Origin: Candidatus Palauibacter polyketidifaciens
Lineage (GTDB): Bacteria; Gemmatimonadota; Gemmatimonadetes; Palauibacterales; Palauibacteraceae
Reading direction: 5' to 3'
Assembly: GCF_947581785.1 (NCBI RefSeq)
Contig: NZ_CANPVO010000013.1
Coordinates: 1-64,000, forward strand
DNA: 64,000 nt
The translations under genes and the position numbers were made by a program. A model generated the notes under the pieces. That model was given only the letters and a program-made list of their open reading frames with translations. It was not told where the DNA came from and searched no databases. Positions within the stretch are counted from its first letter, which is position 1. Every line of letters begins with the position of its first letter. This document shows positions 28,947 to 33,654 of the stretch, in pieces.

Positions 28947-31586
28947 TCAGCCGCACTCGCTGTAGCCGCAAGCGTAGCACTTCGCGCAGCCTTCTTCAAA
29001 GGCGAGGCTGCTCCCGCATTCCGAGCACACGCCCAGGAAAAGCCGGGCCGCCGACTCCTGGTAGCGTTCGATCACGGGGCGCTGCGACGACCGGGCGCCG
29101 CCGTTCGTGTTCTTTTTCCGGGCGGTCTCGACATCCTCGATGGGAAGCGTCTGCTGAATCCCTTCCTTCTCCTCGAGGTAGCGCTCGATGACCTGGGCGA
29201 TCGCGTCCGGGCCGGAGAGCACCTTGCTCGCGCCGAGTCCGACGGCCCGGTCGGAAGAGATCCCGCGCAACTGCTTGTGCACATCGCGCAGTGAAATCCC
29301 CGAGCGCAGGGCGAGCGAACACAGCCTTCCGATGGCTTCGGCATCCGCCATCGCCGCCCCTCCCGTCTTGCCGAGGGCGACGAAGACCTCGAACGGGCGC
29401 CCCTGCTCGTCCTCGTTGATCGTCACATACATCGTACCCAGCGGCGACTCGATCTGCCGGGTGTGGCCCCGCAAAACGGCAGGCCGCTGCCGTCTCTCGA
29501 CGCGGCGCATTCTGGAACCTTCGAGCTCGGTGATCCGCCGCTGCTTCTCCTCGACGGCATTCTCAAGCTTCCGGTTGTGCGTCTGCAGTTCGCTGTTCTG
29601 AACCTCCGCGGCGGCGAGCCGCTCAAGCGTGCCCGCGAGATCCCCGGCGAGTTCGGGCTCCACATCGACGGCTTCGAGCCGGACTCCGTCCGCCGCAACG
29701 GCCGAGCCGCTCTCGCTTGTCTGACGCTGGACATCCTTCGCCGTACTGCCCGTCGACAGCACCTGCTCGTCACGCGACCCATCGCGGTAGACGGTGACCC
29801 CCTTGCACCGCAGCTCGTACGCCATCTCGTAGATCTTGCGCACGTCCTCCTCCGTGGCGGTCGTCGCAAAATTGCACGTCTTCGAGATGGCGGAGTCGCA
29901 GTGCGCCTGGAATGCCGCCTGCATGCGAATGTGCTGCTCGGGCGGAACATCGTGCGCCGTAACGAAGATCCCCTGAACATCCCCCGGCACTTCATCGAAG
30001 TGGATGTGGCCCTCGTCGGCGATGCGCTGCATCAGCTCCTCGGAGTACCAACCCCCTTCCTTCGCACGGCGCACGAAGTCCGGATTCACATCCGGCATCA
30101 GCACGCCTGCCTGATTCCTCATGAATGCGACTGCGAACAGAGGCTCGATCCCACTTGAACACCCCGCAATGATCGAGATGGTCCCCGTGGGGGCGACCGT
30201 CGTCAGGTTGCAGTTGCGGAGCCGGCGTTCGGGGCGGATCCGATTGCCGTCACCGTCCCGCGCGCACGTCTCGTCGGGACCCCAGATCGATCGCTCCCAC
30301 TCGGGGAAGACGCCGCGCTCGGCGGCCAGCCGTTCGGACTCGACCTTGCATTGCTCATCGACGAACTCCATCACCTCGCGCGCGAGTTCGACGGCGCGCT
30401 CGGAGCCGTAGGGTTCGCCGATCCTTACGAGCATGTCGGCCCATCCCATGATGCCGAGGCCGACGCGGCGGATCCGCTGGGACAGATCTTCGATTTTCGG
30501 GAGCGGGTAGCGGTTGGCATCGATGACGTTGTCGAGGAAACGGGTCGACTCCTGGACGGCCTCGCCGAGCCCGTCCCAGTCGATCCGACCCTGGTCGTCG
30601 ACGAAGTAGCCCACGTTGATCGAGCCGAGATTGCACACGTCGTAGGCAAGCAGCGGCTGTTCGCCGCAGGGGTTCGTGGCTTCGTAGTCGCCGAGGTGCG
30701 GGACCGGGTTGTAGCGGTTCGCCTCGTCGATGAAGAAGACCCCGGGCTCGCCGTTCCGCCACGCGCTGGAGATGACGCTCGTGAACACCTCCTCGGCGTT
30801 CAGCTGATCCACGACATCGCCGGTCCGCGGGCTGATGAGGTCGTAGTCCGAACCCGTCCGGACCGCCGCCATGAAGGCGTCGGTGACGCCGACCGAGATG
30901 TTGAAGTTCGTGATCCGGGTCTTGTCCGCCTTGCACTCGATGAAGTGGCGGATGTCCGGATGATCGACGCGCAGGATGCCCATGTTCGCGCCCCGTCGCG
31001 TCCCGCCCTGCTTCACGGCCTCGGTCGAGGCGTCGTAGACCTCCATGAAACTGACCGGGCCGCTCGCCACGCCCATCGTCGACTTGACGACGTCGCCGGA
31101 AGGACGAAGGCGACTGAAGCCGAACCCGGTGCCGCCTCCGCTCTGATGGATGAGGGCCATGTCCCGCAGCGTCTCGTAGATGCCGTCGAGACTGTCCGGA
31201 ACGGGAAGCACGAAGCAGGCGGAGAGTTGCCCGAGCGGACGCCCGGCGTTCATGAGCGTGGGGCTGTTCGGCTCGAAGATGCCGTCGGCCATCAGGTGAT
31301 AGAAGCGCTCCGTGCGCTCGAGGACCTCCTCGTCCGTCGCCCCGTAGCGGCCATCCTGCGACGCAATGACATCGGCCACGCGCCAGAAGAGGTCGCGCGG
31401 CCCCTCGATGGGCTCGCCGCGGTCATTCTTCTTCAGGTACCGGCGCGCCAGCACCGTCCGCGCGTTTTCGGCAAGTCCGGGCTCGGCGAGGTCGGCCGGC
31501 CTGGCATTGGATCCCACCCGCATCTCACCCCGTACCGGGGCGCTCGTCGACACGCCCTCCCGCACCGCCACATCCGGTGGATTCAT
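28947..31586 (-). CDS. nrdJ: Vitamin B12-dependent (class II) ribonucleoside-diphosphate reductase
   Basis: Makes deoxyribonucleotides using adenosylcobalamin, so no oxygen is needed. The 879-residue product has [20 protein letters not shown] (first redox Cys), NPCGEQPLL with the thiyl Cys and catalytic Glu, and VAPTGTIS. A predicted coiled coil (about residues 670-720: [20 protein letters not shown] and on) precedes the C-terminal region. The zinc-ribbon tail has CSEC and [12 protein letters not shown] for re-reduction. The ATG at 31586 is preceded by GGAAGGCGGGGGG; a GTG 36 nt upstream is less likely. Regulation looks elaborate (see upstream sites). Confidence 0.95.
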
Positions 31587-31641
31587 TGCCGCCCCCCCGC
31601 CTTCCTGTTTTCGACCGTCCACAAATCAAGCCAACCCGCGG

Positions 31642-31661
31642 AAAAAACCGGCTTCGGCCGG
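31642..31661 (-). terminator. Intrinsic terminator (possible attenuator) in the nrdJ leader
   Basis: Minus strand: CCGGC-CGAA-GCCGG followed by TTTTTT, a textbook short GC stem, tetraloop and T run. It lies between the nrdJ promoter and start codon, 55 nt before the ATG. An upstream GGCCGG at 31688-31701 could pair with the terminator's 5' side and act as an anti-terminator. Termination and switching are predicted, not shown. Confidence 0.6.
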
Positions 31662-31840
31662 GACCCGACGACCGCGCGAGTCGAATGCCGGCCTAGGCCG
31701 GGAAGCCTGACGGGCGCGGAGATCGACGTACCCCGCGCCCATCGTTTCTGGTTCTTCGTATGCGATCGCTGTGGATCATCGTGAGGTTTTCAACGACTCC
31801 ACAGCCTTTCCACACAAAATGCGTGTTTTTTCCACACGTA

Positions 31841-31856
31841 CCGCTATATGTGGTGG
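31841..31856 (-). promoter_or_regulatory. NrdR box 1 (proximal) upstream of nrdJ
   Basis: Minus strand CCACCACATATAGCGG. It matches 11 of 16 positions of the NrdR box consensus as I recall it (ACACwAtATwTaGTGt). It covers roughly +1 to +16 of the predicted transcript. Its start is exactly 32 nt from that of the second box, about three helical turns, the usual tandem NrdR spacing. Confidence 0.65.
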
Positions 31857-31863
31857 CCTCCAG

Positions 31864-31892
31864 ATGATAACTACACCATATGTTGTGGTCAA
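31864..31892 (-). promoter_or_regulatory. nrdJ promoter
   Basis: Minus strand: -35 TTGACC at 31892-31887, 17-nt spacer, -10 TATCAT at 31869-31864, start expected near 31857. The second NrdR-type box fills the spacer, so repressor binding would exclude RNA polymerase. Confidence 0.7.
31873..31888 (-). promoter_or_regulatory. NrdR box 2 (distal) within the nrdJ promoter spacer
   Basis: Plus-strand reading ACACCATATGTTGTGG matches 12 of 16 positions of the NrdR consensus, with intact ACAC and GTG arms. It lies between the -35 and -10 of the nrdJ promoter. Confidence 0.7.
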
Positions 31893-31923
31893 GCCAGGAA
31901 ACCCCGGGAAACCGCCTTTCGCG

Positions 31924-33654
31924 CTACGGGAGAGCCCGCCGGGTGCGCAGGATCCAGAGCCCGCCTCCGCCCAGGGCGGCGACGCCGACGGAGAGGGCGG
32001 CGGTCCGTGGCTCGAGCAACAGCGTGCCGCCGAGCGCAAACATCGCCCCGAAGAGGAGCAGCGTTGCGCCGGCCGTCCGCAGGAGCGCCTCGCGGAGGGG
32101 AAGGTCGGGAGAGATGCCCGCGCGCTCGCGGATCGCGCGCCAGCCCGGCCCGGCGGGTCGTACCCGTCGATAGAACTCCAGCAGGGTCGCCTCGTCCTCG
32201 GCGCGCGTGAGCCACATCACGGGAAGCCAGACCGCCGCCGACCCGAAGGCGGTCAGTGCGAGCCGCGTCCCGAACTCCATCGCGCCGAACGCCGGCAGAT
32301 AGGAACAGAGGGCAATGGCGAAACCGGCGAGCATGGAGGCGAGTTCGGCCCAGGCGTTCACCCGCCACCAGAACCAGCGCAGGATGAGCACCGCTCCGGG
32401 CCCCGTGCCGATTGCGATCATGAAACGGAAGAGGGCCCCGATGTCGTTGGCGAAGAACGCTGCAACCGTCGCGGCCGCAACGATGCAGGCCGAGGCGAGT
32501 CGGCCCAGCAACACGAGTCTCGCGGCCGATGCGTCCGGGTCGATGAAGCGGGCATAGAGGTCGTTCACCAGATAGCTCGCGCCCCAGTTGATCTGCGTCG
32601 AGACGGTCGACATGAAGGCGGCGAAGAACGACGCGACGACGAGCCCCAGGAGGCCGGCGGGAAGGTAGCGCAGCATGAGCATCGGGTATCCCAGATCGGG
32701 ATCGGCCAGATCCGGAAAGACGACGACGGCCACGAGTCCGACGAGCACCCACGGCCACGCGCGGACCACGTAGTGAAGCCACACGAACCACCATGCGGCG
32801 CGCTCGGCGTCCGCTTCGGTGCGGCAGGCGAGGAGGCGCTGCACGAATTCACCCCCGCCATCGGAGCGGCGGAACGCCCACCACTGTATGCCGAGGTAGG
32901 CGAGGAAGGTCCCGAACGGGAGGGCTTCGGACCCCGGCCGGGGAACCATCCCCAGGACATCGCTCCGCCCCGCCGCCGCGAGCTGGGCCTTGAGTTCCGC
33001 GATCCCCCCGATTTCCGCGAGCGCGAAGGCGGCCACGAGAATGGCCCCGAAGAGGGCGAGAAAGAACTGGAAGAAGTCCGTCGCGACGACCCCCCACAGC
33101 CCGGCGATGCCCGCGTAGGCGAGTACGAAGATGGAGAGGGCCACGACAGCCCACAGGCGCTCGTCCCCCGGCACCCAGCCGGAGAGGTCCGGGAGGAGCC
33201 CGAGAGCCTCGACGACCTTGCGCATGGCGAGCATGACGAAGCCGATGGAGATGCAGTTGATCGGCACCGCGAACAGGAAGGCGCGCGTGGCCCGCAGGAC
33301 GGCGGCAGGGCGGCCGCCGTAGCGAAGTTCCGTGAGTTCCACGTCCGTGACGATCCCGGCGCGGCGCCACAGACGCGCGAAGAGGTAGATGAGGAGGAGG
33401 TGGGAGAGGCCGAACGACCACCATTCCCAGTTGCCGGCGATGCCCCGGCGCGCGATGAGGGCCGAGACATAGAGCGGCGTATCCACCGAGAAGGTGGTCG
33501 CGGCCATCGACGTGCCCGCGAGCCACCACGGCAGCGCGCGTCCCCCGACGAAGAAGTCGACGATGCTCCCGCGCGCCCGGCGCGAGAGCCACAGTCCGAC
33601 GCCGAACGTGAGCGCGAGGTAGATCGCGACGATCCACCAGTCGACCGGACTCAA
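31924..33654 (-). CDS. Sodium:solute symporter (SSS family), last gene of the muropeptide-recycling operon
   Basis: A 576-residue transporter with about 13 membrane segments, starting SPVDWWIVAIYLALTFGVGLWLSRRA. FVGGRALPWWLAGTSMAATTFSVDTPLYV resembles the SSS core (TM1/TM2 with the sodium site). WGVVATDFFQFFLALFGA and FFAAFMSTVSTQINWGASYLVNDLY are also typical. The TTG start overlaps the NagZ stop (TTGA). Position after murQ-anmK-nagZ suggests uptake of anhydro-muropeptide sugars, MurNAc or GlcNAc. That substrate is inferred from context only. Confidence 0.88.
   Translation of the reverse strand: MSPVDWWIVAIYLALTFGVGLWLSRRARGSIVDFFVGGRALPWWLAGTSMAATTFSVDTPLYVSALIARRGIAGNWEWWSFGLSHLLLIYLFARLWRRAGIVTDVELTELRYGGRPAAVLRATRAFLFAVPINCISIGFVMLAMRKVVEALGLLPDLSGWVPGDERLWAVVALSIFVLAYAGIAGLWGVVATDFFQFFLALFGAILVAAFALAEIGGIAELKAQLAAAGRSDVLGMVPRPGSEALPFGTFLAYLGIQWWAFRRSDGGGEFVQRLLACRTEADAERAAWWFVWLHYVVRAWPWVLVGLVAVVVFPDLADPDLGYPMLMLRYLPAGLLGLVVASFFAAFMSTVSTQINWGASYLVNDLYARFIDPDASAARLVLLGRLASACIVAAATVAAFFANDIGALFRFMIAIGTGPGAVLILRWFWWRVNAWAELASMLAGFAIALCSYLPAFGAMEFGTRLALTAFGSAAVWLPVMWLTRAEDEATLLEFYRRVRPAGPGWRAIRERAGISPDLPLREALLRTAGATLLLFGAMFALGGTLLLEPRTAALSVGVAALGGGGLWILRTRRALP

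Follow-up and report, generated by a model that had tools for sequence, protein, structure and literature searches.

Control of ribonucleotide reductase (RNR) genes by their upstream regions has been described at more than one level. At the leader level, a cobalamin riboswitch precedes RNR genes, as it does in Streptomyces at nrdABS (Borovok 2006, cited in PMC5962746). At the promoter level, described cases include the NrdR-controlled RNR promoters (PMC9110341) and the E. coli nrdAB promoter with its DnaA boxes (PMC8203912). We analysed the leader of nrdJ in a stretch of 64,000 nucleotides from Candidatus Palauibacter polyketidifaciens (Gemmatimonadota), referred to as the window. We propose, with a probability of about 0.5, that the nrdJ 5' leader carries a genus-specific cis-regulatory RNA hairpin that controls expression after transcription initiation, plausibly by conditional termination. 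In the following, G-numbers denote the Palauibacter genomes compared, G000 being the window's genome, and L-numbers denote nrdJ leaders or loci.

28947..31586, minus strand: nrdJ, class II (adenosylcobalamin-dependent) ribonucleotide reductase, above the curated cut-offs of both NF006417 and TIGR02504
31586, minus strand: ATG start codon of nrdJ, with GTG at 31622 as a possible alternative

A sodium/solute symporter gene lies upstream of nrdJ on the same strand and ends at about 31924. The closest nrdJ locus is that of SB0661_bin_41, with 100% identity across nrdJ, and the loci nearly identical to that of the window belong to metagenome-assembled genomes (MAGs) filed under Candidatus Palauibacter, Gemmatimonadales or Gemmatimonadetes. 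Searching the 97% assembly of G000 returned a single NrdJ match and no match for the class I small subunit (NrdB) or the class III enzyme (NrdD); with the reservation that this assembly is incomplete, nrdJ looks like the sole RNR gene detected in the genome. In a survey of the order, Palauibacterales MAGs were found to carry B12 transporter genes but no genes for B12 biosynthesis (PMC10469786). Because only a class II RNR was seen in G000, DNA synthesis in this B12-importing marine symbiont should rely on imported B12.

31864..31892, minus strand: predicted sigma-70-like promoter, TTGACC-17-TATCAT, 10/12 match
31873..31888, minus strand: NrdR box 1, CCACAACATATGGTGT, 13/16 against the box consensus used
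31841..31856, minus strand: NrdR box 2, CCACCACATATAGCGG, 11/16 against the same consensus
31828..31836, minus strand: DnaA-box-like TGTGGAAAA (reverse complement TTTTCCACA), absent in G015 and variant in G005
31806..31814, minus strand: second DnaA-box-like 9-mer, TGTGGAAAG, 22 bp past the first

Within 16 kb, no other sigma-70-like match occurs on the minus strand. The promoter predicts a transcription start at about 31857, 271 nt from the ATG, which supports the leader of roughly 270 nt given in a preliminary description of this DNA. The two NrdR boxes overlap the promoter with a spacing of 32 bp that is kept among relatives. We extracted and aligned 14 Palauibacter upstream regions, to which G003 was added through its match to the core described below (G198 is of the same species as G003); the -35 region and the NrdR boxes occur in all 14. 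Box pairs spaced by 31–32 bp are also found in most nrdJ leaders of families f1, f2, f3, f6 and f8. The nrdR gene was searched for in 16 Palauibacter genomes and detected in 14; the exceptions are G000 and G012. For G000, this is probably an assembly gap because 14 of the 15 other genomes searched have the gene. No nrdR was found in the f5 and f7 members of the subset searched for it, and good box pairs are likewise missing from the nrdJ leaders of these two families, a parallel that speaks for the boxes being real. The locus has two boxes 32 bp apart over a promoter, with nrdR in the lineage, as in an NrdR regulon.

Most Palauibacter leaders contain two DnaA-box-like 9-mers, 21–23 bp apart, following the NrdR boxes. 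The pattern TTWTNCACA was enriched upstream of nrdJ: 18 family-f1 leaders had 17 occurrences (0.2 expected), and 97 other leaders across the class had 40 (1.2 expected), both being sets of related, non-independent sequences. In G003 (L228), a second hairpin followed by a T-run, CGGCGGG...CCCGCCGGTTTTTG, lies upstream of the core and close to the predicted transcription start.

31709..31743, minus strand: P0 hairpin, 13 bp in the fold with a loop of 9, z = −3.7 against shuffles
31648..31701, minus strand: conserved core hairpin, 54 nt, defined by alignment, pair counts, energies and conservation
31701-31697/31652-31648, minus strand: P1 stem of the core, 5 bp
between P1 and P2, minus strand: internal loop CUA/GAA (CUA or GUA / GAA over the variants)
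31693-31688/31661-31656, minus strand: P2 stem, 6 bp, followed by a C-C mismatch
31686-31680/31669-31663, minus strand: P3 stem, 7 bp, followed by the apical loop
31642..31647, minus strand: U6 run adjoining P1, U5–U7 in four variants and interrupted in G005 (TCTTGT)

The preliminary description had suggested that the leader could be a three-element attenuation switch, composed of an 8-bp stem, a perfect palindrome and a terminator hairpin. The elements themselves are present on the minus strand where it had placed them. In the fold, the 8-bp stem GGGCGCGG/CCGCGCCC (31712-31740) grows to 13 bp and spans 31743-31709. The palindrome at 31688-31701 is perfect in the window (CCGGCCTAGGCCGG) and imperfect in three lineages (CCGGCGTAGGCCGG). 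The hairpin CCGGC-CGAA-GCCGG with T6 occupies 31661-31642, its T-run lying 55 nt from the ATG (31586); the run of six Ts recurs as a U-run in four variants and is broken in G005. The proposed pairing of GGCCGG with the terminator arm is possible, but it frees no antiterminator. GGCCGG (31693-31688) pairs with CCGGCC (31661-31656) while the 5' arm of the palindrome pairs with the 3' arm of the terminator, so the supposed palindrome and terminator form the outer arms of one longer hairpin that ends at the U-run. For all five sequence variants, this interrupted hairpin (31701-31648, then U6) is the minimum-free-energy fold of the core alone. Relative to it, the two-hairpin form is less stable by 6.4 kcal/mol in G000, 9.2 in G015, 10.9 in G005, about 7 in G013 and 5.3 in G003. 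Because both states end directly at the U-run, both would be expected to terminate, and the switch is unsupported. The terminator stem as originally drawn has two of its five pairs broken in G013, where the two small hairpins cannot fully form, and one in G003; in G015 a deletion has removed the 8-bp stem. No conserved antiterminator was found, and other upstream pairing partners in some folds are not conserved. Two further pairings were rejected since their partners are not conserved outside the main clade, namely sequestration of the ribosome-binding site and a GGCTTC/GAAGCC plus U-run pairing seen in some long folds.

The whole nrdJ leader folds more stably than its shuffles (z = −4.45). 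For the core hairpin, z ranges from −2.3 to −3.4 in three variants; the remaining two have −1.6 and −1.2, the value of −1.2 for G013 not being significant. Adding 50–60 nt of upstream leader introduced some competing pairings, most in G013 and G003. In folds of growing prefixes, which represent equilibrium and not kinetics, a small hairpin at 31701-31688 persists to about 31670, and by 31648 the long hairpin is complete. A GC-rich P1–P3 hairpin followed by U6 has the sequence form of an intrinsic terminator, and the U-run is kept in four of five variants. However, the match of a hairpin and T6 is by itself no evidence because terminator-like sites are as frequent in shuffled sequences (7 found in 16 kb against 5.8 expected). 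At the position of P0, G003 and G005 have hairpins of unrelated sequence and G013 a weak one. Since P0 is deleted in one species (G015), it is dispensable and accessory at most.

Conservation of the core is our strongest result, and sequence comparison indicates a constraint above that of the silent sites of nrdJ. All 14 aligned upstream regions contain the core. Of 17 Palauibacter genomes, 16 have it, and it precedes nrdJ in each one whose region was read. In G003, the core likewise follows the promoter and boxes and is itself followed by an nrdJ-like start, and the core and flank of G198 are identical to those of G003. The seventeenth genome, G012, has nrdJ without the core and without recognisable NrdR boxes. 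There are five distinct core sequences. Over the block 31701-31647, identity to the window is 54/55 in both G015 and G005, 53/55 in G003 and 48/55 in G013. The fourfold-degenerate sites of nrdJ, our yardstick (G003 left out), are identical at 85% in G015, 47% in G005 and 34% in G013, giving binomial p values of about 1e-16 each for G005 and G013, which treat sites as independent and apply to a core picked for looking conserved. Despite that choice, an unselected scan also puts the longest exact match in the core: when the 64-kb window is compared with the 14.9-kb contig of G005 it is 49 nt inside the core, followed by 48 nt in nrdJ, and for the 9.9-kb G003 contig it is 43 nt in the core. The 20-kb stretch of G013 had no comparably long exact run in the core. 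The promoter segment is merely 66–73% identical in three divergent lineages, and the leader outside the core and promoter is mostly near shuffled identity. About 110 nt of leader are lost in G015 while the core is kept.

The evidence for an RNA structure is less direct. The preliminary description had made its case depend on covariation and on retention of the hairpins in related genomes. The hairpin is kept in 16 of 17 Palauibacter genomes and was found in none of the genomes sampled outside the genus, and the core shows no compensatory covariation, no pair being changed on both sides among the five distinct sequences, in which 14 of 18 pairs are invariant. Canonical pairs fill 95.6% of cells, and a column-shuffle control is equally good. 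Because there is no two-sided change and shuffled columns score alike, the RNA structure of the core is plausible, not demonstrated by covariation. Two changes that keep pairs in P3 (U-G to C-G in G015 and U-G to U-A in G013) and the 10-nt insertion of G013, which lies in the apical loop and lengthens the stem, are supporting hints. C-A mismatches occur in P1 of G003 and G013 and in P2 of G013, and P3 of G013 has a U-U.

We searched for relatives with a covariance model of the core (R1) in 394 genomes of the class and 395 of the phylum, the two samples overlapping. Palauibacter genomes scored 77–95 bits, and nothing outside the genus in these samples exceeded 29 bits. Some class genomes reached 20–29 bits, a level matched by the reverse strand of the element itself, which we treated as noise. 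Because the strict filters used in this search drop weak matches, a structurally similar relative with diverged sequence could be missed. The other genera of the family yielded no homologue of the element, either by sequence pattern or by R1. The core hairpin is specific to the genus Palauibacter in these sequence searches and narrow in its spread. The preliminary description was right that the leader has no cobalamin riboswitch: the RF00174 model gave no match at gathering score in the window or at the nrdJ loci of relatives, and cobalamin riboswitches were detected elsewhere in 16/16 Palauibacter genomes searched (positive control G000:C14:65914). No Rfam 15 family reached its gathering score in the window, at these nrdJ loci or in a sample of nrdJ leaders from other families, and a relaxed search of 31500-32000 returned only low-scoring unrelated families. 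The locus thus stands as a structured, non-cobalamin nrdJ leader with a hairpin followed by U6, outside known RNA families, as had been anticipated.

Other genera of the family have long nrdJ leaders of their own. Those of genus g6 (L015, L016, L017, L133) share a different conserved leader, with a GGTCTG...CAGGCC hairpin followed by a GGGGTG...CACCCC hairpin and a T-run. The nrdJ leaders of family f2 (L025–L030) share GGCCTCCTCCCCC-GCCACC...GGAGGCC, possibly another leader hairpin. An invariant TTTGTGATGT lies upstream of nrdJ in 21/22 f5 and 2/2 f10 leaders (e.g., L036, L043, L062, L047), against an expectation of about 0.07 in 97 shuffled leaders, and 9/27 f7 leaders carry related forms such as TTCGTGATGT. 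These might be an alternative operator; the f5 and f7 genomes searched lack nrdR.

Several other identities were considered for the core and rejected. A tRNA-like element was suggested by the resemblance of TTCGACTC to a T-loop, and ARAGORN found none. A dispersed repeat is not apparent, with one exact copy in G000 and three more sites at 3 mismatches against one in a reversed-pattern control. A second weak BLAST match in G014 (L230) looks by eye like part of a coding region, and IMG/VR gave no exact match that would indicate a viral origin. The core as coding sequence is argued against because the G013 insertion is 10 nt long; there is also an in-frame stop ahead of the GTG in the window.

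In the mechanism that we favour, transcription would start at the promoter covered by the two NrdR boxes, the start itself being a prediction, and NrdR would repress it when dATP is high, by analogy with the known family. The nascent RNA is modelled to fold into the 54-nt interrupted hairpin with its GC-rich base against U6. The near-invariant sequence, unpaired positions included, would most likely serve to bind a protein or a small molecule, and the bound factor might determine, as a second layer of control after initiation, whether RNA polymerase halts at the U-run or reads through into nrdJ. We infer the action of the core as RNA, the termination and the bound factor. Termination is suggested because the hairpin abuts a U-run in a leader, and recognition of specific nucleotides because the sequence is invariant beyond pairing; taken together, these features speak for a hairpin that works after initiation, either as a conditional terminator or by binding. 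Of the two, recognition has the firmer footing, since G005 has an interruption in its U-run and some pairs of the hairpin are broken in G013 and G003.

The same near-invariance, predicted loops included, would also be shown by a DNA operator, a double-stranded site for a regulator downstream of the NrdR promoter, whose inverted repeats would reflect dimeric or multimeric binding and whose RNA hairpin would be incidental. The absence of compensatory changes, the single copy and the inverted-repeat halves fit such a site, and we regard it as a serious rival, unlikely as we judge it to be. However, 54 nt is long for one operator, some 155 nt separate the core from the predicted start upstream of it, and the U-run adjoins the hairpin in four of five variants; the stem-lengthening G013 insertion and the two pair-preserving P3 changes also speak against an operator. 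An ordinary intrinsic terminator or pause that senses nothing and reduces nrdJ expression by a constant proportion would account for the GC-rich hairpin followed by U6. It would preserve pairing and the U-run, whereas the leader preserves sequence, with 54/55 identity where the U-run of G005 is interrupted and with pairs broken in G013 and G003; we consider it improbable.

Only slightly less improbable is an element of mRNA stability, processing or translation, in which the hairpin shields the nrdJ mRNA or makes it accessible, e.g., as an RNase site or for an RNA-binding protein, without a role in transcription. The core lies 61–179 nt ahead of the start codon over the five variants, P0 and the core are strong hairpins, and some lineages retain an upstream hairpin of altered sequence, all of which suit this reading, but a conserved pairing to the ribosome-binding site was not seen across lineages, and the placement of the U-run points to transcription. 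Many small RNAs end in a 3' hairpin and U-run, and the conserved sequence terminating in this form could be the 3' part of an independent or leader-derived RNA that acts in trans and ends at U6. We give this very little weight: no separate conserved promoter was seen, and the stretch between the NrdR promoter and the core is diverged or deleted.

Under the favoured reading, a cis-regulatory RNA hairpin acting after initiation, a constraint stronger than that of the silent sites of nrdJ in an element unlike the cobalamin riboswitch would amount to a new control of dNTP supply. It is a tentative and rather doubtful extension that the leader represents a new class of non-cobalamin RNA that senses a ligand or protein and couples transcription of the sole B12-dependent RNR to cofactor or nucleotide status, atop NrdR. 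The core is a short, well-delimited RNA and is directly testable in vitro even though the bacterium is uncultured.

The Palauibacter locus resembles the E. coli nrdAB promoter (PMC8203912) in having DnaA-box-like 9-mers beside an RNR promoter, but the enzyme is of class II, the phylum is another one, and the 9-mers are candidate sites. As in NrdR-controlled RNR promoters (PMC9110341), the promoter is overlain by two boxes at a distance of about three helical turns, to which Palauibacter adds a conserved leader hairpin downstream; the nrdR gene was not detected in the incomplete assembly of G000. The cobalamin riboswitch before RNR genes (PMC5962746) shares control of RNR at the leader in a B12-dependent organism, but the Palauibacter nrdJ leader has no RF00174 match although the same genomes carry RF00174 elsewhere. 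With the intrinsic-terminator attenuators of bacterial leaders, the core shares a GC-rich hairpin directly followed by U6, and it differs from them by its unusual invariance, the lack of a detected conserved antiterminator and the interruption of the U-run in one lineage. A cis-regulatory leader element is a familiar kind of control, of which the nrdJ core would be a new and narrowly distributed variant.
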